The notes under the pieces were generated by a model, which did not search any database, was not told the origin of the DNA, and saw only the letters and a program-made list of their open reading frames with translations. Positions 10,921 through 30,914 of a stretch of 33,345 nt of DNA are shown here, piece by piece. This stretch comes from Chloroflexi bacterium HGW-Chloroflexi-2 (GTDB taxonomy: Bacteria; Chloroflexota; Anaerolineae; Anaerolineales; Anaerolineaceae): contig PHBY01000032.1 in assembly GCA_002840735.1 (NCBI GenBank), positions 1 through 33,345 on the forward strand, in the 5' to 3' direction. The position numbers were made by a program, and so were the translations under genes. Numbering within the stretch: position 1 is the first letter of the stretch; every line of letters starts with the position of its first letter.

Positions 10921-12120
10921 TTACTTGTGTTCTGTGAATTGTTCTCGGATCTGATGATGACCGAGCAGGTCTGAGAATTTTTGATAATTTCCAGATGCCT
11001 GCTGGACCTGACCAGCCAGAATTGCTGGAGACATCCCCAATTGAGAAGCAAAAATTTGAATATCTTCTTTACTGAGATCATTTAATTTTGGTAAACATTG
11101 TTCTTCCCAAAAATGACGAGGAACTAAGTGGTCGAAAGCGAATTGATTGGCTTGTTTTTCTAATAAATTGGTCGTTTCATGCGCGCCATGATCAAATTCA
11201 TCAAAAAATACTCGCTCTGAACCCTGGATTAAATGTAAAAAGATATGTCCCAATTCGTGAAATAATGTAAACCAGAAATTATCCTGACGATCTTGACGAA
11301 GAGTCATTGCGACTACCGGGTTATTATCAGGTCCGATGAAGGATGCACCATCTATATGTGTTCCTGACAGGGTTGGTAAAATAACAAAATGAATTCCTCT
11401 TCGATTTAAATGTTCCTTTACCAGGAGAACCCCTTTTTGATATTGACTGAATCTCAACAATTCGGTAAAAAAATCTAGCCCTACTTTGTCATAATGAAAT
11501 TCGCATAATTGATTTTGTCTGGCTATGGTTGCTACTCTTGCAAGCCAGGCATTCAGTGCATTCAAATTTATTTGTTGATTTCCATGTTTGTAAATTACAA
11601 ATTCTAATTCTCTGGAATTGAAAACCGAAAACAGATCACTGAGTAATTCTTCAGCAAATAATCTCGCTTTCCGAACATCTGAAACATTGGAAAAGTACTC
11701 TGCCTGAACCATTTCGCGAAATGGGAAATCCTCAGCACGATATTTTTGTTCCTGAAAGGTGGCTAGCGAATCCTGAATCAAAACACTATACGGGATTCCA
11801 AGCCCTTTATGTAGTTCTCGAATCATACTTAAACTTAAAGTTCGACGACGATTAAGGATGTCTGAAACTTTGCTGGCACTGCCAATAAATGGCACTAAAT
11901 CCTTTTGTTTTAGACTCATTTGCTCCATTCTAAATTTAATAGCCTCAATAGGATCAGGCATTTCGACCGGAAAATTTTCCTGCTCGTAGTGTTCAATCAA
12001 TACAGAGAGTACTTCTAATAAGTCTGCTTCAGGAGTGCCTGGTGAAGCAGCCATGAGTTTTTCTACCTCCAATAATGCTGCTTCATATTCTTCTTCATCG
12101 CGAATGATCTTGATGTTCAT
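10921..12120 (-). CDS. higA: HigA-type antitoxin fused to ImmA/IrrE (M78) metallopeptidase
   Basis: The 399-residue protein joins two modules. Residues about 1-118 look like a HigA antitoxin (acidic helical N-terminus, then an XRE HTH: MSLKQKDLVPFIGSASKVSDILNRRR). Residues about 200-340 are an ImmA/IrrE-like zinc peptidase with HELGH (288-292) and a downstream EKQANQFA (Glu321) as the expected third ligand. HigA proteins are normally much shorter, so this is a fusion. It follows the HigB gene with a four-base ATGA overlap, the order typical of higBA. It probably neutralises HigB and represses the operon. The peptidase could degrade the antitoxin or a regulator under stress, which is inference. 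Confidence 0.85.
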   Translation of the reverse strand: MNIKIIRDEEEYEAALLEVEKLMAASPGTPEADLLEVLSVLIEHYEQENFPVEMPDPIEAIKFRMEQMSLKQKDLVPFIGSASKVSDILNRRRTLSLSMIRELHKGLGIPYSVLIQDSLATFQEQKYRAEDFPFREMVQAEYFSNVSDVRKARLFAEELLSDLFSVFNSRELEFVIYKHGNQQINLNALNAWLARVATIARQNQLCEFHYDKVGLDFFTELLRFSQYQKGVLLVKEHLNRRGIHFVILPTLSGTHIDGASFIGPDNNPVVAMTLRQDRQDNFWFTLFHELGHIFLHLIQGSERVFFDEFDHGAHETTNLLEKQANQFAFDHLVPRHFWEEQCLPKLNDLSKEDIQIFASQLGMSPAILAGQVQQASGNYQKFSDLLGHHQIREQFTEHK

Positions 12121-12425
12121 TTCAAATTTCTCACATTGATCTGGTTATACTCTTTATGGTTTCCAAACCAGCGAACTAAAACAGTACCGTTGTTTTTACC
12201 ATAAGCATAAAAAACATCAATAACCAACCGGTACTGATTTCCCATTATGTTGAAAATAACCCGATGACCATCAATAAAATCTGCAGAGTTATACGCTTGA
12301 CGAATATCAGCTGGGTTTTCCCAGCGTTCTTCTCTGACCTGATAATACCAGGCTCTTAATGGTTGGGCAGCTGGTTTATAAAACTCACAATATTGATTGA
12401 TCTTCCGTCTGGTTATAATGTTCAA
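12117..12425 (-). CDS. higB: HigB-family mRNA interferase toxin
   Basis: The 102-residue protein matches the HigB toxin family (RelE superfamily): MNIITRRKINQYCEFYKPAAQPLRAWYYQV, RQAYNSADFIDGHRVIFNIMGNQYRLVI and VRWFGNHKEYNQI are the characteristic blocks. These toxins cleave mRNA on the ribosome. The start is TTG at 12423-12425; no ATG or GTG is available and an in-frame stop lies just upstream, while the N-terminus aligns with the family as it stands. The -10 box lies only four bases upstream of the TTG, so the message may be (near-)leaderless or a second promoter may exist. The toxin gene comes first, as in other higBA loci. Confidence 0.87.
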   Translation of the reverse strand: MNIITRRKINQYCEFYKPAAQPLRAWYYQVREERWENPADIRQAYNSADFIDGHRVIFNIMGNQYRLVIDVFYAYGKNNGTVLVRWFGNHKEYNQINVRNLK

Positions 12426-12563: not shown

Positions 12564-13436
12564 ATGCCAACCTATACCCAACCCATCACAGAATTGATTC
12601 AGCAGCGTTTCTCCTGCCGAAAGTACAACAAGGAGCCGATTCCTGTAGAAATGCAGGAAAAACTGCGTAGCATGATGGCAGAGCTGAGTACCGGTCCGTT
12701 TGGGACCCCGATGCGGTTTGACCTGATTACAGCAGAAAACCAGGATGGTAAAGCTTTACGTGGATTGGGAACCTATGGCTTCATTCAGGGCGCGAGTGGT
12801 TTTGTGGTTGGGGCATTGGGTGCAGGTCAACTGAATCTGGAAGAGTACGGCTACCGTATGGAACAGATTGTACTGGCAGCCACGAATCTGGGGTTGGGCA
12901 CCTGCTGGCTGGGCGGTACGTTTACCAAGAGTGCTTTTGCCAGAAGAATCGTGTTGCAAGATGACGAACGCATGCCGGCTATTCTGGCCATTGGGTTGAT
13001 AGATGATGAAGTGCAGTCCCGAAAGGGTGCCATCCGGCAGTATGTGGCTGGGCAGCGACGGATTCCCTGGAAGGAGCTCTTTTTTGATCGTGTATGGGGA
13101 ACAGCGTTATCGCCTGAGGATGCTGGAGAATACTCCAGGTCTTTGGAGATGGTTCGCCTGGGTCCCTCCGCATCGAATAAACAGCCCTGGCGAATTGTAC
13201 GAACAGATGGGTTTTTCCATTTCTTTATACAGCGCACGAAAGGGTATCGCAATTTGATGACCCGGCTGGTGCAGATCGACGATATGCAGCGTCTGGATAT
13301 GGGTATCGCGATGTGTCATTTCGAATTGACGGCCTGCGAGTTAGGATTAAATGGGAAATGGGGGATTGTGGATCATGGGCTGGATTTGCCCAATGATCTG
13401 ATCGAATATTCGGTAAGTTGGATCTTGACAGATTAG
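12564..13436 (+). CDS. Nitroreductase family protein (FMN-dependent, TM1586-like)
   Basis: From ATG 12564 the protein has 290 residues. An in-frame start at 12363 would add 67 residues that run through higB and its promoter, so it is rejected. The N-terminus (ITELIQQRFSCRKYNKEPIP) and AATNLGLGTCWLGGTF are typical nitroreductase segments, and RLGPSASNKQPWRI is the FMN-proximal block. The layout matches the TM1586-like branch, in which two half-domains sit in one chain. It likely reduces a nitro or other unsaturated substrate with NAD(P)H. The true substrate is unknown. It is divergent from higBA and its 3' end carries the -35 box of the ssb operon. Confidence 0.8.
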   Translation: MPTYTQPITELIQQRFSCRKYNKEPIPVEMQEKLRSMMAELSTGPFGTPMRFDLITAENQDGKALRGLGTYGFIQGASGFVVGALGAGQLNLEEYGYRMEQIVLAATNLGLGTCWLGGTFTKSAFARRIVLQDDERMPAILAIGLIDDEVQSRKGAIRQYVAGQRRIPWKELFFDRVWGTALSPEDAGEYSRSLEMVRLGPSASNKQPWRIVRTDGFFHFFIQRTKGYRNLMTRLVQIDDMQRLDMGIAMCHFELTACELGLNGKWGIVDHGLDLPNDLIEYSVSWILTD

Positions 13437-13453
13437 AACAATCATTCTATAAT
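13425..13453 (+). promoter_or_regulatory. Perfect-consensus promoter of the ssb operon
   Basis: TTGACA (13425-13430), a 17-base spacer and TATAAT (13448-13453) match the sigma-70 consensus exactly. The -35 box lies in the last codons of the nitroreductase gene. The predicted start near 13460 gives a leader of about 150 bases. Confidence 0.8.
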
Positions 13454-13457
13454 ATAG

Positions 13458-13603
13458 TAGCTCATGGCTCAAGAATTCAGGAACTATTCTCACTTGCACT
13501 TATAAAATTTGATATAAAATTAATCTCACATAAACTTAATGGCTGTCAGCCAACAACTGTCAGCTTTGAGCCAAATTAGACCAATCAGAAACTTTAGACC
13601 AAT
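13458..13603 (+). repeat. Repeat-rich 5' leader of ssb
   Basis: The leader has TAGCTCATGGCTCA (13458-13471), the palindrome GGCTGTCAGCC, a second CTGTCAGC copy, and TTAGACCAAT twice (13576-13585 and 13594-13603). The first element recurs at 33234-33247, and a TAGACCAAT-like block occurs there in inverted orientation. It may be a dispersed intergenic repeat or a structured leader. Confidence 0.4.
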
Positions 13604-13612
13604 GGAGGAATT

Positions 13613-14023
13613 ATGTATCAAAAAGTAACAATCGTAGGAAATTTAGGCAGAGATCCAGAAATGCGCTTTACCCCGTCCGGACAGGCAGTAACGTCATTTC
13701 CAGTAGCAACAAACCGCACCTATACCGGTTCGGATGGCCAACGTGTCAAAGAAACCGTCTGGTTCCGTGTTTCCGCCTGGGGCAAACAGGCAGAGAACTG
13801 CAATAATTTCCTGCATAAAGGCAGCAAGGTACTGATCGAAGGCCGCTTAATGGCGGATCCAGCTAGCGGTGGTCCCCGGGTTTTCAACCGGCAGGATGGA
13901 ACCGCTGGCGCAAACTTTGAGTTGACCGCCATGACCGTGCAGTTCCTGGATAGCCGCACGGAGAGTGAACAAGCCGGCACTGAGGAAATGGGTACACTCA
14001 GTGACGACGAAATTCCATTCTAA
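13613..14023 (+). CDS. ssb: Single-stranded DNA-binding protein
   Basis: The 136-residue protein has the OB fold of bacterial SSB (MYQKVTIVGNLGRDPEMRFTPSGQAVTSFPVATNR, WFRVSAWGKQAENCNNFLHKGSKVLIEGRL) and ends in the acidic tail DDEIPF that recruits repair and replication proteins. The central region is slightly shorter than in E. coli SSB, as is common. It starts after a strong GGAGG. It is the first gene of a run that continues with DUF3467, translin and the two nuclease halves, with gaps of 11 bases or less. Confidence 0.95.
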   Translation: MYQKVTIVGNLGRDPEMRFTPSGQAVTSFPVATNRTYTGSDGQRVKETVWFRVSAWGKQAENCNNFLHKGSKVLIEGRLMADPASGGPRVFNRQDGTAGANFELTAMTVQFLDSRTESEQAGTEEMGTLSDDEIPF

Positions 14024-14034
14024 AGCCCCATCTA

Positions 14035-14421
14035 ATGACAGAACCTAAACAACCAAAACCCGGCATCCCACCCTTGCGGATGCCGGAAGGTTTACAAAGT
14101 AAATATAGCAATATGGCGCGGATCGCGCACACCCCATCCGAGATGATTTTCGATTTTGCCACGATGTTACCGGGTACCCATCCGGAAGTAGTGGCGCGTG
14201 TGTTGATGTCACCCATGGGCGCCAAAATGTTCTTGCAGGCATTGACAGAGAATGTTGCCCGCTACGAAGCCAACTTTGGTCCGATTAAGCTTCCGGTTGG
14301 GACAAGTGACCTGGCAAGCTCTCTCTTTCGCAATATCCAGCCGCCTGACAAAAACAATCCCTCTGAAACACCCGAAAAGGATACGCCACCCGACACTGAA
14401 CCCCCTGAAAGTGAAGCATAA
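14035..14421 (+). CDS. DUF3467 family protein
   Basis: The 128-residue protein matches the DUF3467 pattern: KYSNMARIAHTPSEMIFDFATMLPGTHPEVVARVLMSPMGAKMFLQALTENVARYEANFG. A proline/acid-rich tail (about 100-128) is probably disordered. Function is unknown. It lies between ssb (11 bases) and the translin gene (one-base overlap, stop TAA/ATG), so it is firmly in this operon. Confidence 0.8.
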   Translation: MTEPKQPKPGIPPLRMPEGLQSKYSNMARIAHTPSEMIFDFATMLPGTHPEVVARVLMSPMGAKMFLQALTENVARYEANFGPIKLPVGTSDLASSLFRNIQPPDKNNPSETPEKDTPPDTEPPESEA

Positions 14422-15101
14422 TGGATCGCTTTTCACAATTATCCGATTCCGTCCACAATGCATTTGAAGTCCGTAACCAGGCGCGCGACAAAGCCCTGAT
14501 GCAGACCCGCAAGGTCATTCAGCATGCTGCGCATGCCATCCGGGCAATCCACCGGCTGGATGTGGATCTGGCAGACGGCTTTCTCAATGATGCGCGCCTG
14601 CTGGTGGATCAGCTACGGCGTGATTTGGGTGAGCACCCCGATCTATTCTACGCTGGCTATACCCAGGATGCGCTCAAAGAATACGTGGAAGCCTGCGTAA
14701 CCTGTGCGCTCATTCGTGGGCAGGAAATGCCACTCCCTGAAGAGATTGAAGTAGAACCAGCCGTGTACTTGAATGGCCTGGCAGAGGTGGTTGGCGAACT
14801 GCGCCGGCGCTGCCTGGATGTGATGCGGCAGGGTTATTCTCCCGAGGTGGAACGTCTGCTGTCCTTGATGGACGAAATCTATGCTTTGTTGATCACCATT
14901 GACTATCCGGATGCATTAACCAATGGTTTGCGTCGTCAGACGGATCTGGCTCGTGGGATTGTGGAGCGTACGCGTGGTGATGTGACCATCAGTCTGCGGG
15001 AACAGCGACTCTCACAATCCATGAAGGAGCTGGCAGTGCTGTTGAAGACCGAAAGCCTGAACGACGACGAAATTTTACCGGAGATTGAGGAAGAGGATTG
15101 A
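14421..15101 (+). CDS. Translin-family protein
   Basis: The 226-residue, largely helical protein matches the translin/TRAX fold family as seen in archaea and some bacteria: EYVEAC (87-92), YLNGLAEVVGELRRRCLDVMRQG (116-138), MDEIYALLITIDYPDALTNGLRRQTDLARGIVERTRGDVTIS (150-191). Eukaryotic translin and TRAX form octamers that bind single-stranded nucleic acids, and TRAX is an Mg-dependent RNase. Candidate acidic residues (Glu90, Glu122, Glu126) are present here, but whether this is a nuclease is open. An acidic tail (EIEEED) ends the chain. It overlaps the next gene by four bases (TTGA). Database names for this family are sometimes misleading (haloacid dehalogenase). Confidence 0.75.
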   Translation: MDRFSQLSDSVHNAFEVRNQARDKALMQTRKVIQHAAHAIRAIHRLDVDLADGFLNDARLLVDQLRRDLGEHPDLFYAGYTQDALKEYVEACVTCALIRGQEMPLPEEIEVEPAVYLNGLAEVVGELRRRCLDVMRQGYSPEVERLLSLMDEIYALLITIDYPDALTNGLRRQTDLARGIVERTRGDVTISLREQRLSQSMKELAVLLKTESLNDDEILPEIEEED

Positions 15102-15343
15102 GAAAACGCACCATACGTGCGTCGGAGATCGGTACCTATCTATATTGCAAACGAGCCTGGTGGTATCAATCCCAGGGTGTTGAGTCGTCCAACCAGCAGG
15201 AGATGTCAGGTGGCACGGCTTATCACCACGCACATGGGAAGAATGTTCTTAAGGGTATGTTATTGCGTGTGTTTGCCTGGTTGGTATTGGCGGCAGCGTT
15301 GGTATTGCTGGCTGTCTGGCTAACCGGGAAATTGTTGGGTTGA
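15098..15343 (+). CDS. N-terminal half of a Cas4/RecB-like nuclease with C-terminal membrane helix
   Basis: The 81-residue product starts at TTG 15098 (GAGGAAGAGGA in front, four-base overlap with translin). Residues 6-26 (IRASEIGTYLYCKRAWWYQSQ) match the first block of Cas4-type PD-(D/E)XK nucleases, with the first Fe-S cysteine at Cys17. GTAYHHAHG (39-47) matches the helix that carries the metal-binding His. Residues about 54-76 form a membrane helix, where the chain stops. The catalytic D/E-x-K part and the other three cysteines are in the next ORF, which begins one base after this stop, in another frame. Either the enzyme is made of two subunits or a frameshift has split one gene. Confidence 0.7.
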   Translation: MRKRTIRASEIGTYLYCKRAWWYQSQGVESSNQQEMSGGTAYHHAHGKNVLKGMLLRVFAWLVLAAALVLLAVWLTGKLLG

Positions 15344-15344
15344 T

Positions 15345-15857
15345 ATGGAAGGAATCCTCGCGCTTGTTTTGTTTTTGGTTGCGTTTGTGCTCTTTTGGCG
15401 CAGCCGCTGGGTGCGTCAGAAGTCGGGATTGCCACCTGGCAGAATCGTGTATTCCGACCCAAAGCTGTGGGGCAAGACCGAGAAACCTTTCTACGACGTC
15501 GAGACCCAACTGACAGGAAAACCGGATTATTTGATCAGCCAGGGAATGGTCCTCATCCCGGTTGAGGTCAAAAGTCAATTCGCCCCGGCAGAACCATATG
15601 ATAGCCATGTTTACCAGCTCATGGCTTACTGTTATCTGGTAGAACACGCCACCGGGCAACGCCCCCCACACGGAATTCTGCAGTATCGCAACCGCACCTT
15701 TGCCATCGATTACGGCAATGAGCAGGAAACTGCCCTATTGGAATTGCTGGAACAGATGCGTACCGATGATAAAGCCAAAGATTGCCCACGATCACACACA
15801 GAAGCAATTCGCTGCCTGCGTTGTGGTTTCAACCATGTCTGTGATCAGAAGCTTTAA
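15345..15857 (+). CDS. C-terminal half of a Cas4/RecB-like PD-(D/E)XK nuclease with N-terminal membrane helix
   Basis: The 170-residue product begins with a membrane helix (about 3-19) and basic residues (RSRWVRQK). It then carries the nuclease core: GKPDYLI (Asp61), IPVEVKS (Glu74, Lys76), QLMAY (Gln91 to Tyr95), and the C-terminal cluster Cys157-x2-Cys160-x5-Cys166, which in Cas4 joins one N-terminal cysteine to hold a 4Fe-4S cluster. That cysteine is in the ORF just upstream. Together the two products would put both nuclease parts on the cytoplasmic face, joined by a helical hairpin. No cas gene or CRISPR array is in the window, so a CRISPR role is not supported. DNA end processing next to SSB is more plausible. 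Confidence 0.75.
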   Translation: MEGILALVLFLVAFVLFWRSRWVRQKSGLPPGRIVYSDPKLWGKTEKPFYDVETQLTGKPDYLISQGMVLIPVEVKSQFAPAEPYDSHVYQLMAYCYLVEHATGQRPPHGILQYRNRTFAIDYGNEQETALLELLEQMRTDDKAKDCPRSHTEAIRCLRCGFNHVCDQKL

Positions 15858-17019: not shown

Positions 17020-17027
17020 TAATGATT

Positions 17028-17894
17028 ATGGTTATGAATCCTCCCCGTAGATTTGCAATTGCCACACATCCCTCTCAGCCCCAGGTGGCTGAAGGCGCCC
17101 GGGAACTGGTAGAGCGGTTAAAGATATTGGGGGCTGACCAGGCCTCGGCATACACTATTTACGAACCCGAACTCAAACAACTGGTTCAACAAAAAGAGAT
17201 TGATGTCTTAATTACGCTGGGTGGTGATGGCACTATGTTACGTGCAGGGCATCTGGTAGCACCCATGGGTATCCCGGTGCTGGGCATCAACCGTGGCCGC
17301 TTCGGCTTCCTGATGGAAATTGACGAGCTGGAATGCGAAGACCGCCTGAATCAACTGTTGGGTGGTGATTACCGCCTGGAAAAACGGATGATGCTGCATA
17401 GTATTCATCGTCGCGAAGACCAGAAGCTGGGCGAGTGGCATGTACTCAATGAGGTGGTGGTCTGCAGAGGGCAATATGTGCGCCCGATTCAGGTGAAAGC
17501 ACGCCTGGATGGCTATTTACTGGCTTCCTATGTGGCTGATGGAGTCATTGCTTCCACAGCAACTGGCTCAACCGCCTATGCTCTGGCGGTCGGTGGGCCG
17601 ATCCTGCCACCGGAGATGCGTAATATCCTCATCGTTGCAATTGCCCCACATCTCTCCGTCGACCGCTCGATTATCCTTTCGGAGGGATCACACATCACCC
17701 TGGAGGTCAATACCAACCACGAAGCGGTACTGAGTGCGGATGGTCAACCGCCAGTCATCCTCAAAGATGGGGATGAGGTGGATGTCTGTGCCAGTGAGCA
17801 CGCTATTAATTTTGTGCGTTTCCAGGATCAGGGATATTTTTATCGTAACTTACATAAATATATGGAACAAAATCCAATCGCAGGTGCATTGTAA
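17028..17894 (+). CDS. nadK: NAD kinase
   Basis: From ATG 17028 the protein has 288 residues. ATG 17022 and 17034 are in the same frame; 17022 would lie upstream of the predicted transcript start. It has the NAD kinase signature GGDGTMLR (about 65-72), the GINRGRFGFLMEI loop and the conserved DGVIASTATGSTAYALAVGGPI block, which bind ATP and NAD to make NADP. The length is typical. The stop codon overlaps the start of the next gene by one base (TAATG), so the B-box protein and then recN probably belong to the same transcript. Confidence 0.93.
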   Translation: MVMNPPRRFAIATHPSQPQVAEGARELVERLKILGADQASAYTIYEPELKQLVQQKEIDVLITLGGDGTMLRAGHLVAPMGIPVLGINRGRFGFLMEIDELECEDRLNQLLGGDYRLEKRMMLHSIHRREDQKLGEWHVLNEVVVCRGQYVRPIQVKARLDGYLLASYVADGVIASTATGSTAYALAVGGPILPPEMRNILIVAIAPHLSVDRSIILSEGSHITLEVNTNHEAVLSADGQPPVILKDGDEVDVCASEHAINFVRFQDQGYFYRNLHKYMEQNPIAGAL

Positions 17895-18418: not shown

Positions 18419-20164
18419 ATGCTGACTGAATTGCACATCACCAACTTTGCCATTATTGACCAGCTGGAACTACGTTTTCCTGCCGGGTTGGTGATCTTTA
18501 CCGGTGAGACCGGAGCAGGCAAATCGATTATTCTGGATGCCATTGAAGCATTGGTGGGAGCACGGGCTGAGACAACCAGCATTCGCGAAGGTGCCGACCG
18601 TGCCAGCCTGGAAGCTGTATTCAAGCTGAATGAGTTAAACCGGGCAGTCATCACGGATCTTCTCGCCGCTGAAGACTTGCTGGACGACCCCGATTATGTC
18701 ACATTAGGACGAGAAATTCGACGTGAGGGGCGCACTGTCGCGCGCGTCAATGGACGCGCAGTCAATGTCGGATTGTTACGTGAGATCGGCGAGCAATTGG
18801 TGGATATCCATGGGCAATCCGAGCATCTCTCTTTATTAAATGTGAAGAAGCATCTCTCCCTGTTGGATCGCTTTGCGGTCATCGCGGAGTTGCTGGAGGA
18901 TTACCAGAGTAGCTACCGAATCTGGCAGGGCATCCGCCGTGAATTGGATCAACTACGCCAGCTGGAACGGGATGCAGATCGCCGGATGGAATTATTATCC
19001 TTTCAGATTGAAGAGATTGAAGCGGCCAAACCTCTGGTGGGTGAGGAGCAGGAACTCAAGGAAGAGCGCAATCGTCTGGCTAATGCCGAAAACCTGGCGG
19101 AGTATGGGCGTACTGCTCTCGGTTTGCTGGATGAAGCCAACCCGGAGATGCCGGGTATCAGCGATTTGGTAGGACAGGTGTTACAGGCCTTGCATGGGCT
19201 GACACGCATCGATAGCTCGCAAACGAACCTGGCAGAGCAGGCAGACAGCCTGTCTGTGCTGGTAAGTGAGCTCTCGCGTGACCTGCAAACCTATCTGGAT
19301 CAGATTGAATTCAATCCCCGTCGATTGGAAGCAGTAGAAGAGCGTTTGGAAGTCCTACGGACACTACAACGAAAATATGGTGGTAGCATCGAAGCGGTAC
19401 TGGCATATGCCTACAAAGGGCGTGAAGAGTTAGAGCAAATCACCCATGCTACTGAACGAATTGAGGAATTGACCGGGCAGGAGCAGCAGATTCGGCTGAC
19501 ACTGGCTGACAAAGCGCAGCGATTATCAACGCAGCGCAAACAATCGGCGAATAAATTGTCTCTTGCTGTCGAAAAAGAATTGATGGATTTGAGCATGGAG
19601 GGGGCACGTTTTGAGGTTAGTTTCGGTATCCAGCCTGATCCACATGGTCTGGAACTGGAGACGGGCGAAACAGTTCGTTTTGACGTAACGGGTATCGACC
19701 AGGTGGAGTTCCTGATCGCTCCCAACCCGGGTGAGGGACTCAAACCAATGGTCAAGATCGCTTCAGGTGGTGAAACAGCACGGCTGATGCTGGCACTTAA
19801 ACGCGTACTGGCACAGGCTGATGAAGTCCCTACGCTGATATTTGATGAAATTGACCAGGGTATTGGTGGAAGAATCGGTTTTGTGGTCGGTGAGAAACTC
19901 TGGCATCTGGCGCGTGATCATCAGGTGTTGTGTGTCACCCATCTGCCACAGCTGGCTGCCTTTGGTGATCAACATTTGCGGGTTTCGAAGCAGGTGCAGA
20001 ACGGCAGAACTTTAACCCTCGTGGAAGCATTGGCAACCGAAGGACGACGAAACGAGTTGGCACAAATGCTGGGGGCTATCAGCGAGTCGCATCTGACTAC
20101 CGCGGATGAAACTCTACGTACCGCTCAGGAACGCACCCGGCTTTCCAAACCATCTCTACTTTAA
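18419..20164 (+). CDS. recN: DNA repair protein RecN
   Basis: The 581-residue SMC-like ATPase has Walker A GETGAGKS (29-36) at the N-terminus, the family segment VDIHGQSEHLSLL, a long central coiled coil, then the ABC signature SGGETARLMLALK, Walker B TLIFDEIDQGIGG and the His loop CVTHLPQLAAFGDQH. RecN acts early at double-strand breaks, holding DNA ends for recombination. It is full length. The start is six bases after the B-box gene, without a strong Shine-Dalgarno, consistent with translational coupling. The BTAD regulator follows after 18 bases. Confidence 0.95.
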   Translation: MLTELHITNFAIIDQLELRFPAGLVIFTGETGAGKSIILDAIEALVGARAETTSIREGADRASLEAVFKLNELNRAVITDLLAAEDLLDDPDYVTLGREIRREGRTVARVNGRAVNVGLLREIGEQLVDIHGQSEHLSLLNVKKHLSLLDRFAVIAELLEDYQSSYRIWQGIRRELDQLRQLERDADRRMELLSFQIEEIEAAKPLVGEEQELKEERNRLANAENLAEYGRTALGLLDEANPEMPGISDLVGQVLQALHGLTRIDSSQTNLAEQADSLSVLVSELSRDLQTYLDQIEFNPRRLEAVEERLEVLRTLQRKYGGSIEAVLAYAYKGREELEQITHATERIEELTGQEQQIRLTLADKAQRLSTQRKQSANKLSLAVEKELMDLSMEGARFEVSFGIQPDPHGLELETGETVRFDVTGIDQVEFLIAPNPGEGLKPMVKIASGGETARLMLALKRVLAQADEVPTLIFDEIDQGIGGRIGFVVGEKLWHLARDHQVLCVTHLPQLAAFGDQHLRVSKQVQNGRTLTLVEALATEGRRNELAQMLGAISESHLTTADETLRTAQERTRLSKPSLL

Positions 20165-23786: not shown

Positions 23787-25336
23787 TCATTAACTGCAAA
23801 AAAGCATGATTTTGAGCGTAAAAAATGAATTTTGGGGACACTAGGCGGTGGTAAAAGATGAGCTACAATTGTAATTATGGCGTTCATCCGGAAAGTAAAA
23901 ACCACAAGTGGCGCAACAGCAGTTCAAATTGCTTACAAACAAAAAGGCAAGATTGTCAAGATAAATCACCTTGGCAGTGCTCATACTGACGAAGATCTGA
24001 AAATTCTGTTGGCTTTGGCACGCAAGCAATTGCAGAAAAACCAACTACCATTGTTTCCAGAAATACAAACATCTCTACAAGTAGGGATCAAACGGTCCTT
24101 TTCAGATTTATTATGGAAGACCTTACGGGAACAATATCAAAAGCTCGGATTCGATCAGTTGAATGACGAAGTATTTGAGGCTCTATGCCTGGCACGTATT
24201 GTTGAGCCCAGCTCCAAATTGGATAGCTTGCGAGTATTGGCAGATCTAGGATTGGGAAAACTTGACCAAAATAAGCTATATCGATGTTTAGCCAAGGCAG
24301 CAGACCAGAATTACAGAAAGATAATCAATCAAGCCTGTTTTGAGCATGTTGGAGGGGATAAACTTGCGCTCATTCTCTACGATGTTACCACCCTGTATTT
24401 CGAGACACAAAAAGAAGATGATTATCGGAAACCAGGGTTAAGTAAAGAACGCAGATTAGAACCACAGATCATTATTGGACTACTGGTGGATCAAAGAGGA
24501 TTTCCCCTGGGTTTACACAGTTTTGAAGGCAATAAAGCGGAAACAAAGACCATTTTGCCTGTAATCGAAGCATTTCAAGCCCAGCATGGGCTAAAAAAGA
24601 TTACCATTGTGGCGGATGCTGCCATGCTCAGTGCGACCAATTTGACAGCCTTCACGGAAGCCGGGTACACCTACATTGTGGGTTCACGGCTTCATAAGAT
24701 CCCCTATGAGCTGACAGAATTTCAAAAAACAGGTGAAATGTTTGACCAACAAATTATAGTCTCACAGCAGAACGGATATCGAGTAATCTACCAGTATCGA
24801 ACAAAGCGAGCTGCATTGGATCTCCGAAATATTGAAAAACAGATTACCAAGGCCAAAAAGGCGATCAACGGACAGATACCAGCCAATCGAATGAAATTCT
24901 TGACAATCCAGGCAACCAGCAAACAACTAAATCAGAAATTGATTGATAAAGCGAGAGCATTGGCTGGGATCAAAGCATATGTAACCAACCTGGATATCCC
25001 GGATGAGGAGGTGATCGCTTACTACCATCAGCTTTTTCAGGTGGAAGCTTCATTTCGAATGGCCAAATCTGATCTGAAAGCCAGACCCATCTATCACCGC
25101 AAGCGGGATGCAATAGAAGCGCACCTTACGATAGTGTTGGCTGCATTGGCGATTAGTAGAAATATTGAATATCAGACAGGTGTCAGTATAAAGAAATTTG
25201 TGAAGTTGATGCGACCATTGCGATCTGCAATTGTTACTATCAATTCAAAGGAGGTTTTAGCGAACCCAGAGCTTTCTCCTGAGGTTAGTTTACTGCTAAA
25301 TAATCTGGCTTCAGGACACTAGGATGATAAACTCAG
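23787..25336 (+). mobile_element. IS1634-like insertion sequence
   Basis: The 1550-bp segment between two perfect 100-bp direct repeats carries one transposase gene. Long and variable direct repeats are a known trait of IS1634 of Mycoplasma. I see no convincing terminal inverted repeats, so the exact ends are inferred from the repeats. GGACACTAGG occurs near each end (23836-23845 and 25314-25323) but in direct orientation. AAAATCAT/ATGATTTT (23783-23790 and 23806-23813) forms a hairpin across the left junction. Confidence 0.8.
23877..25322 (+). CDS. IS1634-family transposase (DDE, IS4 superfamily)
   Basis: The 481-residue protein is intact. The N-terminus AFIRKVKTTSGATAVQIAYKQKGKIVKINHLGSAH is typical of IS1634 transposases. 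The DDE core shows LALILYDVTTLYFE (first Asp), TIVADAAMLS (second Asp) and YHQLFQVEASFRMAKSDLKARPIYHRKRDAIEAHL (Glu with the Y-R-E-K arrangement of the IS4 superfamily). It cuts and joins the ends of its own element. TACAAT seven bases before the ATG may give a leaderless message, and a stronger promoter lies in the left repeat. The stop lies 14 bases before the right repeat. Confidence 0.92.
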   Translation: MAFIRKVKTTSGATAVQIAYKQKGKIVKINHLGSAHTDEDLKILLALARKQLQKNQLPLFPEIQTSLQVGIKRSFSDLLWKTLREQYQKLGFDQLNDEVFEALCLARIVEPSSKLDSLRVLADLGLGKLDQNKLYRCLAKAADQNYRKIINQACFEHVGGDKLALILYDVTTLYFETQKEDDYRKPGLSKERRLEPQIIIGLLVDQRGFPLGLHSFEGNKAETKTILPVIEAFQAQHGLKKITIVADAAMLSATNLTAFTEAGYTYIVGSRLHKIPYELTEFQKTGEMFDQQIIVSQQNGYRVIYQYRTKRAALDLRNIEKQITKAKKAINGQIPANRMKFLTIQATSKQLNQKLIDKARALAGIKAYVTNLDIPDEEVIAYYHQLFQVEASFRMAKSDLKARPIYHRKRDAIEAHLTIVLAALAISRNIEYQTGVSIKKFVKLMRPLRSAIVTINSKEVLANPELSPEVSLLLNNLASGH

Positions 25337-25436: not shown

Positions 25437-25492
25437 GCCGCAGAAAGAGGTCGGTAGTGTTCAGGGGAATTCACTATCGACCTGTTTTTCTT
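25346..25492 (+). ncRNA. Possible small RNA or 3' UTR unit: promoter to terminator, about 110 nt
   Basis: The right-hand promoter copy (TAGACA 25346-25351, TATAAT 25370-25375) predicts a start near 25382, and a strong terminator ends near 25492. The transcript of about 110 nt contains no ORF of note. Short GCGGC/GCCGC pairing is possible inside it. Before the insertion this unit lay directly after the BTAD gene. It may be a small RNA or just a chance promoter in a 3' UTR. Confidence 0.3.
25448..25492 (+). terminator. Intrinsic terminator, rightward
   Basis: AGGTCGGTAGTG (25448-25459) pairs with CACTATCGACCT (25472-25483) over 12 bp with one G-U, followed by GTTTTTCTT. The T run and the G-U pair favour the plus strand. 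It was probably the terminator of the recN-BTAD operon, now 1.75 kb away from its stop codon. It may also help to end mutS2 on the other strand. Confidence 0.8.
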
Positions 25493-27920
25493 AATCAACT
25501 TTCAAAAAGGAGATGGTGACACCTTCGCCACCTTCGCGTTCGACACCACTCTCCCAATGATCGACATACTGGTTCTTGCTGAGTGCCTCACGAACCACCT
25601 GCCGTAATCTGCCGGTGCCTTTGCCGTGAATGATGCGCACAAATGGCATGCCGGAAAGATAGGCAGATTCGATAAAATTGGATAACCCCGCCAATGCATC
25701 CTCGGCTAATTGACCACGCAAGTCCAGTTCCATACCAGGAGAAGGATGGAGAATCGAAGGTGGCTGGCTGGGGCTCTCGTCCAAATTCTGAAGCGCTTTA
25801 CGTACACTGGAGCGCATTTTGGGTTTGGTTTCTTCTTCGGTCTGTTTTCTGGCATCGCTGGTGCGCAAAACATCGTGAGTGGCAGCACGCACCCGCAAAT
25901 TACCGATTTGCACTTCAAGCTCATCGGCTGAGATAGCCGTTATGACTGCCTGCATCCCCAGGGAGCGAACCATAACCTTCTCTCCCAGTCGCAACGGTTG
26001 CTCATTCAGAGTGGGAGCTCGGCTTTTTCTCACAGGCGGCAAATTGACTTCCTCGTGAATATCGCTCACCTTTTCTTCGATGCTCTTCAAGGCATCCAGG
26101 GGTTGGCGGGCACGAGCCAGTTCTTTGCGCAGGTCGAGTAATTCGCGCTGCAATTTTTCTACTTCATCTTCCGCTGACTGCCGGGCTTTATCCAGAATGG
26201 CTAAACGCTCATCCTCAATTTCTTCCAGGCGCTGGTTTAACTGGCGTTCGAGCCGGCGGGCTTCACTGCGGGAGATTTCAGCTTTACGACGTTCCTTGCG
26301 TGAGATGCTGCGCTGGCGATGAATCTCATTTAACAAATCTTCTGCTTTTAACTCGCTCGGGTCGACCATACTGCGCGCATCTTCAATGATTTCTTTGGAT
26401 AAACCCAGTCGCTCACTGATCGCCAGGGCATTGGATCTGCCGGGAAGACCGATCATTAGATTATAGGTGGGTCGCAAGGTGCGCAGATCAAATTCCATGC
26501 TGGCATTGATCAGTCCAGGCGTGTTATGCGCGAATGCTTTCAATTCAGGGTAATGCGTGGCAATCAGACAGGTGATGTGGCGTTTGACCAGATAGGACAG
26601 CATGGCGCGTGCCAGGGCTGACCCTTCCTGAGGATCGGTGCCAGACCCGAGTTCATCCAGTAGTACCAGACTGCGCGAATTGGCTCGTTTGAAAATACGG
26701 GTAATGTTGGTGATGTGTCCGGAGAAGGTGGATAGCGATTGCTCAATGGATTGTTCATCGCCAATATCGGCGAAGATATCCTGAAAGACGCACAGACTGG
26801 AACCGGATTCTGCCGGGATATGCATGCCAGATTGTGCCATCAATGCCAGTAAGCCGATTGTCTTCAGGCTGACCGTCTTACCGCCGGTGTTTGGTCCGGT
26901 AATCACCACTCCGAAGGTATGCTGGTCGAGTTCCACATCGATCGGCACTACGGTTTTGGGATCCAGTAAGGGATGTCTTGCGTGACGCAAAGCGATGGTA
27001 CTGCCGGGATGATCTTCATTGCGGGGAATAAAATCCACCAGAACTGGTTCAGCCGCGTCCAGATCTTGAGCGTATTTCGCCATCATCAATCCCAGATCGA
27101 AGCGCGACAATGCATCCACAATACAGCGGATCTGCACCACTTCTGCACCGATCATATCGCTGAGTTCGAGTAATATTCGACGGATCTCATCCCGCTCTGC
27201 TAACTGCAGTTCATGCCAGCGGTTGTTAAGTTCCACGGTGACCAGTGGTTCCACAAAAAGGGTGGCACCGGAAGCCGATTGATCGTGGATAATCGCATTG
27301 ATGCGGCCTTTAAATTCAGAGCGCAGGGGAATGACATAGCGGCCATTGCGCTGGGTGATGAGTGTTTCCTGCAACATCTTGCTCTTATGCGGGTCGGCAA
27401 TGATCTGGTTCAGCTTGGAAATCAAACGATCATGAGCAACTTTTATCTCACTGCGAATGGATGCTAATTTTTGGGAAGCATTATCCAGCACTTCACCGCG
27501 CTCAGAAATGACACGTGAAATCGCTTCAATGATTCCGGGTGGTGGGGGAAGCTCCTGGCCTAATTGACCCAGTAATGGTAATGTTTCCGCCTGTTCCAGC
27601 AAGGTGCGGCTCAGGTCACGCGCAGCAGCCAATGTATAACGAATGCTGAGTAATTCGGAGGGCTCTAACATGCCATGTTGGGCGGCGCGGTTCGCCAGGG
27701 GGCGTACATCCCGGCTACCGCCAATGGTGATATCTGCTTCTGAGCTAAATAGATGACGTGTTTCGGTGGTGAACGCCTGACGTTCCCTGGCTGTCTGTAG
27801 TTCACTGCTGGGATGAATATTTCGAGCAAGCTCTGCTGAAGCACTGAAAGCAGCATAAGAACTCAATTTCTCGAGTACTTTCTCAAATTCAAGGGTGTGA
27901 AGCGTTTTTACGTCCATCAT
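25491..27920 (-). CDS. mutS2: MutS2 family DNA mismatch/recombination or ribosome-rescue protein
   Basis: The 809-residue protein has the MutS core and ATPase with Walker A GPNTGGKT (342-349), DIGDEQSIEQSLSTFSGH, Walker B LVLLDELGSGTDP, then a long coiled coil (about 505-620), a KOW-like strand segment (LGEKVMVRSLGMQAVI) and a C-terminal Smr endonuclease domain (LDLRG at about 732-736, HGKGTG at 765-770). It lacks the mismatch-recognition domain of MutS1. Family members limit recombination at branched DNA, and in Bacillus MutS2 splits collided ribosomes. It is full length. TACACT lies nine bases before the first ATG, so its leader is very short. Confidence 0.94.
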   Translation of the reverse strand: MMDVKTLHTLEFEKVLEKLSSYAAFSASAELARNIHPSSELQTARERQAFTTETRHLFSSEADITIGGSRDVRPLANRAAQHGMLEPSELLSIRYTLAAARDLSRTLLEQAETLPLLGQLGQELPPPPGIIEAISRVISERGEVLDNASQKLASIRSEIKVAHDRLISKLNQIIADPHKSKMLQETLITQRNGRYVIPLRSEFKGRINAIIHDQSASGATLFVEPLVTVELNNRWHELQLAERDEIRRILLELSDMIGAEVVQIRCIVDALSRFDLGLMMAKYAQDLDAAEPVLVDFIPRNEDHPGSTIALRHARHPLLDPKTVVPIDVELDQHTFGVVITGPNTGGKTVSLKTIGLLALMAQSGMHIPAESGSSLCVFQDIFADIGDEQSIEQSLSTFSGHITNITRIFKRANSRSLVLLDELGSGTDPQEGSALARAMLSYLVKRHITCLIATHYPELKAFAHNTPGLINASMEFDLRTLRPTYNLMIGLPGRSNALAISERLGLSKEIIEDARSMVDPSELKAEDLLNEIHRQRSISRKERRKAEISRSEARRLERQLNQRLEEIEDERLAILDKARQSAEDEVEKLQRELLDLRKELARARQPLDALKSIEEKVSDIHEEVNLPPVRKSRAPTLNEQPLRLGEKVMVRSLGMQAVITAISADELEVQIGNLRVRAATHDVLRTSDARKQTEEETKPKMRSSVRKALQNLDESPSQPPSILHPSPGMELDLRGQLAEDALAGLSNFIESAYLSGMPFVRIIHGKGTGRLRQVVREALSKNQYVDHWESGVEREGGEGVTISFLKVD

Positions 27921-29300: not shown

Positions 29301-30914
29301 CTAGCTCAAGGGTTTGACCATATACAGTTCACCGGGTTCAAATCCACGAGCCTGATAGTATTGGCGGGTGCCAATCGCAGCAATGACTGCCAGGCTGGAA
29401 TAACCATTTTCCCGGGAAATCCGGCTGGCTTCTTCGAGGAGTTGTTTTCCCAGGCCGATATGTTGGGCTGCCCCTTCTTTCTCCGCGCCGACTGCCAGGG
29501 ATTGCCCATAGACGTGTACTTCACGCACCAGAGCGGCGTTGTGTAAATCCGCGAAATTCAGATCAGCAGCGGGATGATTTTCCTTTGTATCCTGGGGGAG
29601 GGAAAGGCGCAAATAGCCAGCAATTTTATCTTCAGGTGTGCGAAAATGGATGAAGTGCTCCTCAGCATTGGCCGGGTGGTAGATATGATCTTCCAGGCGC
29701 AGATTTTCCATCTGCACCTGCTGCTTCTTGACCTCATTACAGCGGATGCAGTTGCATTTTTGTCCCCGACGAGCGACTTCTGCCAGCACATCCTGGCGCA
29801 GGCTGGTACGTTTGTTGCCTTCAACTACGTGGTGTGAAGGAATGTCGCGAATCACCCGATTGACGCGGCAATACGGCTGGATCATAGGTTTAACATCCGC
29901 AATCAGATGAATCAGATCTTCCTGGGTATAGGGCTCGTATTCACCATTTTGCCAGTAGGTGTGAAGCTCGGTGCCTTCCAGTAACTGCGTGGGGTAAATC
30001 TTAATCTCATCCGGGGAAAATCCATCTGTCCACAGGCGAGAGAAATCCTCTTTATCGGATTGCAGGGTAGCACCCAGGAGATTGGGCATCCAGTGCAGAA
30101 CGATCTTAAAGCTGGCAGCCCGTAAAAGCGAGGCAGCATACAACGCATCAGCGACGGTGTGACCACGCTTGTTGAGTTCCAAAACACGATCATCGAGGGA
30201 CTGCACCCCCATCTGTACCTTGGTGACGCCCAGTTTTCGTAGCCAGGCCAGCTCTTTGGGATTAATTTCGTCCGGGCGGGTTTCGATTACCAGTCCAACA
30301 TTACGATGGGCAGCGGTTTCGTTGAAACGGTGGGCTTCTTCCAGGGTTTCGCTGTCCACGCCGTTCATGGCATCGAAACAGCGTTTAATAAAGTGTTCCT
30401 GATAATCCCGACGATAAGCGCTCCAGGTGCCACCCAGAATGAGAAGCTCGATTTTATCAGTTGGGTGACCATTGGCTTCGTAGGAATCCAGGCGTGATTT
30501 CACCTGCAAATAAGGGTCGAAACTGTGCTGATACGCACGGGCAGCACCGGGTTCGTCAATCAGGTAACTCTTGGGCATGCGCACATCATCCGGGCAGAAG
30601 ATACATTTGCCGGGACATGGATATGGTTTGGTCAGGACAGTAACAGTGGTGACACCTGAAAGGCTGCGCACCGGCTTCATGCGAATGCGTTCTACAAGCA
30701 TCGGATCTTCTTGCGCTTCTCCGTTCTCGATCTGGCGTTTGTATTCAGCAACCAGAATAGACTTGGGAAGGTAACCACCCTTTGGGATTGGGTGTGCGCT
30801 TACCGCGCTGGCTACGTTTTTTCCCTTTCGAATATCTTCCAGTATGTTGCGGGCAAGTTCCAGGCGCTCAGGGGTTATCTGATAGCGTTTTGTCCATTTT
30901 TCGTAATCTCTCAT
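29301..30914 (-). CDS. elp3: Elp3-type tRNA uridine-34 carboxymethyl-modifying enzyme
   Basis: The 537-residue protein joins a radical SAM domain (PYPCPGKCIFCPDD: Cys100, Cys104, Cys107) to a C-terminal GNAT acetyltransferase domain (about 400-537, HIGLGKQLLEEASRISRENGYSSLAVIAAIGTRQYYQARGF). Between them lies the Cys-rich KCNCIRCNEV segment that binds zinc in Elp3. It uses acetyl-CoA and SAM to place a carboxymethyl group at C5 of the wobble uridine of tRNA. Bacterial Elp3 proteins act alone, without the other Elongator subunits. The start follows TTGGAAAGTT. It is divergent from a methyltransferase gene 95 bases away that could perform the next step. Confidence 0.93.
   Translation of the reverse strand: MRDYEKWTKRYQITPERLELARNILEDIRKGKNVASAVSAHPIPKGGYLPKSILVAEYKRQIENGEAQEDPMLVERIRMKPVRSLSGVTTVTVLTKPYPCPGKCIFCPDDVRMPKSYLIDEPGAARAYQHSFDPYLQVKSRLDSYEANGHPTDKIELLILGGTWSAYRRDYQEHFIKRCFDAMNGVDSETLEEAHRFNETAAHRNVGLVIETRPDEINPKELAWLRKLGVTKVQMGVQSLDDRVLELNKRGHTVADALYAASLLRAASFKIVLHWMPNLLGATLQSDKEDFSRLWTDGFSPDEIKIYPTQLLEGTELHTYWQNGEYEPYTQEDLIHLIADVKPMIQPYCRVNRVIRDIPSHHVVEGNKRTSLRQDVLAEVARRGQKCNCIRCNEVKKQQVQMENLRLEDHIYHPANAEEHFIHFRTPEDKIAGYLRLSLPQDTKENHPAADLNFADLHNAALVREVHVYGQSLAVGAEKEGAAQHIGLGKQLLEEASRISRENGYSSLAVIAAIGTRQYYQARGFEPGELYMVKPLS

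Follow-up and report, generated by a model that had tools for sequence, protein, structure and literature searches.

A probable split Cas4-type nuclease with two membrane anchors, encoded behind ssb, DUF3467 and translin-like genes in Chloroflexota

The DNA analysed here, referred to as the window, is a stretch of 33,345 nucleotides of contig PHBY01000032.1 from Chloroflexi bacterium HGW-Chloroflexi-2, a member of the class Anaerolineae (hereafter the class). It contains a run of five genes: ssb, a DUF3467 gene, a gene of the translin superfamily and two short open reading frames (ORFs), the N half and the C half. The last two genes probably encode a two-chain, membrane-tethered DNA nuclease of the Cas4 type. 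The split into two chains is conserved, both chains are anchored and the halves are inherited together. Relatives are cited below by locus (L) and genome (G) numbers.

All five genes are encoded on the plus strand. They are preceded by TTGACA-17-TATAAT (13425-13453, plus strand), a perfect sigma-70 consensus promoter assigned by consensus match only. It is the sole perfect match with a spacer of 16-18 bases in the window, and at least one such match arose in 3 of 100 shuffles. The genes follow as ssb (13613-14023), DUF3467 (14035-14421), a translin-superfamily gene of the archaeal TRAX type (14421-15101), the N half of 81 amino acids (aa; 15098-15343) and the C half of 170 aa (15345-15857). 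The N-half ORF starts with TTG and overlaps the translin stop codon. The intergenic distances are 11, -1, -4 and 1 bases, so that the original prediction of a perfect-consensus promoter ahead of five genes with overlaps or gaps of 11 bases or less is borne out on both counts. The C half is present as a single copy in the source genome (4.1 Mb in 40 contigs). The window ssb is one of four PF00436 matches in that genome. Near relatives with 96% C-half identity are found in genomes named Chloroflexi bacterium and Anaerolineaceae bacterium.

The two halves tile the NCBIfam Cas4 model TIGR00372 (180 positions) without overlap. The N half, which is also supported by conservation and hydropathy, covers positions 2-47 and the C half positions 57-178, with scores of 23.5 and 55.6, respectively, against a cut-off of 65. 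A homologous pair on a Bacillus subtilis plasmid covers positions 1-44 and 61-179, again without overlap. The Pfam Cas4 family PF01930 matches the C half above its cut-off of 22.7 (E-value 1.2e-7, score 32.4) and the N half below it (0.0062, 17.1). Both halves match Cas4 models in PADLOC, where the C half also shows a weak match to DruK (4.7e-8). A search of the N-half profile alone against PDB sequences returned eight matches, all with E-values of at least 0.52, which were taken as chance. In single-chain Cas4s of Chloroflexota, both regions are located within one ORF, and the N-half profile matches the N-terminus of 3 of the 20 that were fetched (L153, L154, L160; E-values 1e-4 to 8e-4). Judged by eye, the break falls after the G-x3-H helix and ahead of the 'RR..YGL..GER' segment, which leads to the core.

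The Cas4/RecB residues named in the original prediction are all present, with C17 in the N half and D61, E74-x-K76, Q91-x3-Y95 and C157/C160/C166 in the C half. The N half additionally carries a conserved histidine, H43, that was not named there and that we take to be the motif I histidine of the nuclease family. The four cysteines are putative 4Fe-4S ligands. Conservation was assessed in 79 intact, distinct pairs, obtained from 85 distinct C-half matches with an N-half match at the same locus after removal of the three single-chain Cas4s L153, L154 and L160, of L105, which repeats the window pair in truncated form, and of L075 and L081, whose C halves are damaged. C17 is kept in all 79, H43 in 76, D61 in 75, E74 in 77 and K76 in 78; Q91 is kept in 78, Y95 in 73 and each of C157, C160 and C166 in 78. 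In every one of these pairs, 77 from Chloroflexota and one each from plasmids of B. subtilis and Paludisphaera, the halves are separate ORFs. Further copies are found in two genomes, namely a second, apparently decayed N half in G383 (L077:8588-9334) and a broken second pair in G499 (L075).

Each half carries its own membrane anchor. A hydrophobic stretch was defined by a 19-residue Kyte-Doolittle mean of at least 1.6, and for the C helix counting began 14 residues ahead of the profile match, irrespective of the start codon. Such a stretch is located near the end of the N half and near the start of the C half in 79/79 pairs, and in the remainder of the C half in none (0/79). The membrane helix predicted at the junction in each ORF is therefore confirmed and conserved in relatives. 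Lysine and arginine are more common before the N helix in 77 pairs (equal in the other two) and after the C helix in all 79. By the positive-inside rule, these charges place the nuclease parts of both chains in the cytoplasm, and the break would lie on the outer side of the membrane.

Among 298 genomes of the class, the C half was found in 201 and the N half in 199. Both are present in 196 genomes, only the C half in 5 and only the N half in 3, one of the latter being a weak match (E-value 6.5e-4). Many of the genomes are fragmented, so that single absences may be gaps. Linkage was counted from the best places listed for 150 of the 201 C-half genomes and 149 of the 199 N-half genomes. Among these listed matches, N directly precedes C in 63 of the 121 class genomes counted, the halves are 0.6-2.5 kb apart in 33 and farther apart in 3, and they are located on different contigs in 22. 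In G228, a genome of a single contig, the halves are 434 kb apart and both are kept. The N half of this genome and of two more from the same family is close to a gene identified as smc in L107; at L107, L109 and L110, an esterase-like (SASA) gene stands between the unlinked N half and smc (Pfam on L107, the others by similarity).

In several loci, an L,D-transpeptidase-like (YkuD) gene is encoded between the halves (L086:3739-4491, L126, L134, L142; E-value 2.4e-12, Pfam on L086 alone). The same gene stands next to translin at L117, L120 and L121, where both halves are missing. Within family f44, the order in L142 and L143 is translin-N-YkuD-C-NAD kinase-recN, while L120 reads translin-YkuD-NAD kinase-recN and comes from a genome in which neither half was found. 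Here, N and C are thus both missing from either side of a retained YkuD gene. A weak N-half remnant (E-value 0.011) follows translin at L118, in a genome that has no C half.

The two ORFs of the window are one base apart and in different frames, which is what an ordinary solo-Cas4 broken by a frameshift, an assembly error or programmed frameshifting would look like. Against this stand the separate ORFs in 79/79 intact pairs with a helix of its own on each half, the spacing of 0.6-2.5 kb in 33 of 121 genomes (matches listed) and the unlinked halves on the one contig of G228. The probability of such a broken gene is considered negligible, and a frameshift or assembly artefact was rejected on the split, spaced and unlinked pairs.

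In seven relatives, N and C share a reading frame and are separated by one or two stops. One of these, L022, was modelled as a chain read through its stop (TGA as glycine), which makes the tether between the halves artificial. The joint alignment (A6) contains 95 rows, 90 of them single halves; N rows were trimmed and the read-through rows of L102 and L092 left out. The AlphaFold2 model has a mean predicted local distance difference test (pLDDT) score of 95.4 and a predicted template modelling (pTM) score of 0.90, and its two long helices (37-80 and 86-114) are consistent with a hairpin. Foldseek and VIA-align both place Cas4 on top. The Cas4-Cas1 fusion 7mi4 aligns with a VIA Z-score of 20.6 over 183 residues at 2.7 Å and covers model residues 2-257, so the match spans both halves; 8d3l follows with a Z-score of 19.0. 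The next structural neighbors are AdnA, EXO5, SSO0001, Dna2 and AddB. As modelled in this relative, the two ORFs together make up a full PD-(D/E)XK fold of the Cas4 type, the opposite of the outcome that would have refuted the original prediction. Profile tiling, residues and fold model together support its view that the last two ORFs are halves of one Cas4/RecB-type nuclease.

Outside the chromosomes, the C half was matched on three B. subtilis plasmids and one Paludisphaera borealis plasmid, and an N half was read on one plasmid of either species. The annotation of the B. subtilis plasmid NZ_OX419568.1 lists the pair as 'hypothetical protein' and 'Dna2/Cas4 domain-containing protein'. Since the N half is a 'hypothetical protein' on the Paludisphaera plasmid as well, half of the enzyme has been overlooked. 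The B. subtilis pair shares the two-chain, two-anchor layout of the window. Its surroundings differ: instead of ssb and translin, NZ_OX419568.1 (L149:17408-20729) encodes a DinG-type helicase (PF13307, 1.5e-44; PADLOC typeIV_DinG, the type IV-A DinG model, 2.2e-118) and a 77 aa ORF before the pair and hfq after it. This row may represent a small mobile module for defence or replication. A tblastn search of phages gave no match, and a search of viral contigs with the C-half profile gave 22 pattern stretches with no relative among them.

A tree was reconstructed from 88 membrane-type C halves, 2 plasmid C halves and 21 single-chain Cas4s, the latter from Chloroflexota only (L075, L081 and L149 were left out). 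'Split' in this tree refers to a membrane-type C half, the N half not always being in the same locus. A branch with support 100/97 separates the membrane-type and plasmid C halves from the single-chain Cas4s. The tree is midpoint-rooted and based on few columns with long branches. Given these properties and the restriction of the single chains to one phylum, one origin of the membrane-type C halves is likely, though unproven.

The three genes ahead of the pair were characterized individually. The ssb product is an SSB with an oligonucleotide/oligosaccharide-binding (OB) fold (PF00436, 1.6e-27; TIGR00621, 1.9e-33, score 116.1 against a cut-off of 53.95), and its acidic C-terminal tail ends in DDEIPF, as read directly from the translation. 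The second gene belongs to DUF3467 (PF11950, 2.7e-18). A model of its product (pLDDT 77.5, pTM 0.54) shows a beta-beta-beta-alpha core at residues 27-81. COMMD domains rank first (best Z-score 6.0) and PUR-alpha and PC4 reach 5.3 and 5.1; the Foldseek E-values of at least 0.21 are not significant, so that the weak likeness to these single-strand binders is a hint only. The single match of DUF3467 to PDB sequences (E-value 0.11) was taken as chance, and neither DUF3467 nor the translin-like protein has a match in PADLOC.

The Pfam translin match of the third gene (2.9e-4) is below the cut-off. Its assignment is secured by a profile match to the archaeal TRAX protein 3zc1 (AFTRAX) with an E-value of 1.4e-37 over profile positions 9-200 of 214, and NEQ131 is matched at about 4e-18. 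E87-x2-E90 and E122 are invariant in 16 aligned relatives. E122 is aligned to a 3zc1 aspartate; 3zc0 has alanine there, which is presumed to mark a catalytic-site mutant. Archaeal and eukaryotic TRAX proteins are RNases. Since the homologue keeps E-x2-E and the third acidic residue in line with archaeal TRAX, the five genes might instead form a membrane-bound RNA-clearing module, with cleavage by the TRAX-like protein and an auxiliary role for the membrane nuclease and the single-strand binders. This is unlikely, as the structural neighbors of the nuclease (Cas4, Dna2, AdnA, AddB, EXO5, lambda exonuclease) are DNA enzymes, a statement on substrates that draws in part on entry titles, and the nearby ssb and recN are DNA genes as well.

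For the link between translin and the pair, 107 listed places were counted, minus genomes taken as having no listed N or C half. Among these matches, translin is the gene directly before the N half in 65 of 106 class genomes, a position that it also has in 5 genomes with the C half on a different contig. The complete order ssb-DUF3467-translin-N-C is found in L097, L127, L128, L136, L137, L144 and the window; L125 is also complete, with a longer stretch between translin and N. Downstream, the window encodes an NAD kinase (17022-17894, plus strand; PF01513/PF20143) and, as the second gene past it, recN (18419-20164, plus strand; TIGR00634, 2e-162), both outside the enzyme. These two recur downstream of the pair in the class, namely in 9 of 25 chosen loci with 4 kb of downstream sequence. 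The long loci were chosen for having these genes, and the neighborhood counts are therefore not a random sample. Genes in G+C-rich loci were placed by profile searches; greedy ORF calling gave antisense shadow ORFs. The gene order is kept in many relatives, whereas a lack of such conservation would have refuted the original prediction. Of the membrane-tethered processing module proposed in the original prediction, the nuclease halves and their anchors stand, while a single functional module of ssb, DUF3467, translin and nuclease is not supported to the same degree: the three upstream genes also occur without the nuclease, which leaves one module plausible but unproven. Cooperation of the nuclease with SSB, DUF3467 and the TRAX-like protein is possible, at somewhat less than an even chance.

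Several observations weigh against the proposed enzyme or its partnership. All four scores of the window and B. subtilis plasmid halves are below the TIGR00372 cut-off. The fold was obtained for the read-through chain of a relative, whereas the window halves are in different frames. Neither half was found in 94 of the 298 class genomes. Some pair-bearing genomes, such as G271, G009, G033, G111 and G444, also encode single-chain Cas4s (L150-L169), and the pair is thus not always the only Cas4 of its genome. D and ExK are missing from the C half of L080 (4552-5106), a possible inactive variant, and nuclease activity may therefore not extend to every pair. This locus would suit a sensor or adaptor in the membrane that binds DNA ends but leaves them uncut, a role that is quite unlikely for the family, given that D61, E74, K76 and Q91 are kept in 75 to 78 of the 79 pairs.

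As to the partnership, no neighboring gene is universal. At L115, L116 and L122, ssb-DUF3467-translin occurs without an adjoining pair; the genomes of L115 and L116 carry the pair elsewhere, and that of L122 is not among the genomes with either half. With 265 of the 298 class genomes, the translin family is more widespread than the nuclease, whose C half is found in 201. None of the 21 loci from other classes with at least 3 kb of upstream sequence has ssb, DUF3467 or translin there; the search profiles were built from the class, so distant relatives may be missed. These findings are arguments for a pair that is real but independent, and whose place behind ssb, DUF3467 and translin reflects shared transcription without a common machine. 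Such independence could well be the case, although we would put it a little short of even, because translin stands directly before N in 65 of 106 genomes and in the 5 with a distant C half, and also in L085, a shorter locus from another class. Co-occurrence with ComEC, considered as an indicator of DNA uptake, offered no discrimination, ComEC being found in 264 of the 298 class genomes.

The closest known relatives of the proposed two-chain nuclease are solo-Cas4 and Cas4 (TIGR00372, PF01930; 7mi4, 8d3l, 4ic1, 4r5q), which share with it the PD-(D/E)XK fold, the D-ExK-QxxxY residues, the N-terminal histidine and the arrangement of one plus three cysteines. The Cas4-family nucleases known to date are single soluble chains or domains of larger enzymes, and known Cas4 is one soluble chain. 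The pair departs from this, as 79 of 79 are split into two chains with membrane helices at the break. Hence, the pair is a variant of the solo-Cas4 kind that is new in its two-chain membrane form. The nuclease domains of AddB, AdnA, Dna2 and EXO5 have the fold in common with the pair (Z-scores 10 to 15), and several of them also place one cysteine before and three after the nuclease core. They are domains of helicase-nucleases or larger enzymes, in contrast to the 81 and 170 aa of the pair, and no helicase domain is among the Pfam matches of the latter. A CRISPR-associated Cas4 would be expected next to cas1/cas2 or a CRISPR array; the four neighboring window proteins scanned with Pfam are non-Cas proteins, a result obtained with no search for arrays or survey of relatives. 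The third gene is homologous to archaeal TRAX/translin (AFTRAX, 3zc0/3zc1; NEQ131, 5jr9) with its acidic residues kept; it differs in being bacterial and in sharing an operon with ssb and a predicted DNA-nuclease pair.

In the literature covered, in which subscription journals are thinly represented, a split or membrane-bound Cas4 was not found, and DUF3467 appears once, in passing. A Cas4 survey from 2017 reports solo-Cas4 in Chloroflexi, which may be either C halves or single-chain Cas4s, and its main text does not contain the words split, transmembrane, truncated or translin. According to a 2023 study (PMC10653904), a Cas4-like nuclease of Synechococcus lowers the transfer or maintenance of RSF1010 replicons, which would fit a role against incoming DNA. 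In a 2017 paper (PMC5424206), an ancestral SepRS operon is said to include an archaeal homologue of TRAX, and earlier work on eubacterial translins is cited.

The window has further features besides the five genes. On the minus strand, a HigB-type toxin gene (12117-12425; 1.6e-25) precedes a gene (10921-12120) whose product has an IrrE-like peptidase (M78) domain, and the two form a toxin-antitoxin-like pair. An IS1634-family transposase (23877-25322; 3.7e-106) is located beside mutS2 (25491-27920; 4.4e-254) on the opposite strand. The minus strand further encodes an Elp3-type radical SAM/GNAT enzyme (29301-30914; TIGR01211, 2.5e-143), of a family better known from eukaryotes and archaea.

Taken as one enzyme, the products of the last two genes would form a solo-Cas4-type PD-(D/E)XK nuclease whose chain is interrupted at the tip of a membrane hairpin. 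The N chain would be cytoplasmic, carry one cluster cysteine and the conserved histidine, and exit via the membrane; the C chain would enter via the membrane and supply the metal-binding D/ExK site, QxxxY and the three remaining cysteines. Pairing of the two membrane helices would unite the halves, and a 4Fe-4S cluster held by one N-half and three C-half cysteines should staple them together. The product is most likely a membrane-tethered Fe-S DNA exonuclease, or else an end-trimming nuclease, at the inner face of the membrane. Held there, it would act on DNA that reaches the membrane and not on the free chromosome. It may serve to clear or process DNA that is incoming or broken.

A more far-reaching proposal is that the active site and the Fe-S cluster form only when the chains meet, which would gate activity, and that the nuclease joins SSB, a PUR/PC4-like DUF3467 protein and a TRAX-like RNase in a membrane-bound machine. 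This machine would dismantle single-stranded nucleic acid as it passes through the membrane or while it is attached there, and would be a layer of DNA clearance or defence that is widespread in Chloroflexota. We regard the proposal as doubtful. If true, a machine with SSB, DUF3467 and a TRAX-like RNase would be counted as plain solo-Cas4.

The form of Cas4 cut at a membrane hairpin extends over several classes of one phylum and to plasmids of two other phyla. It raises the questions of why a DNA nuclease would be tethered to the membrane, and of whether assembly of the chains or the Fe-S staple controls its activity. With the pair present on a B. subtilis plasmid, these questions can be addressed by experiment in a standard laboratory species.

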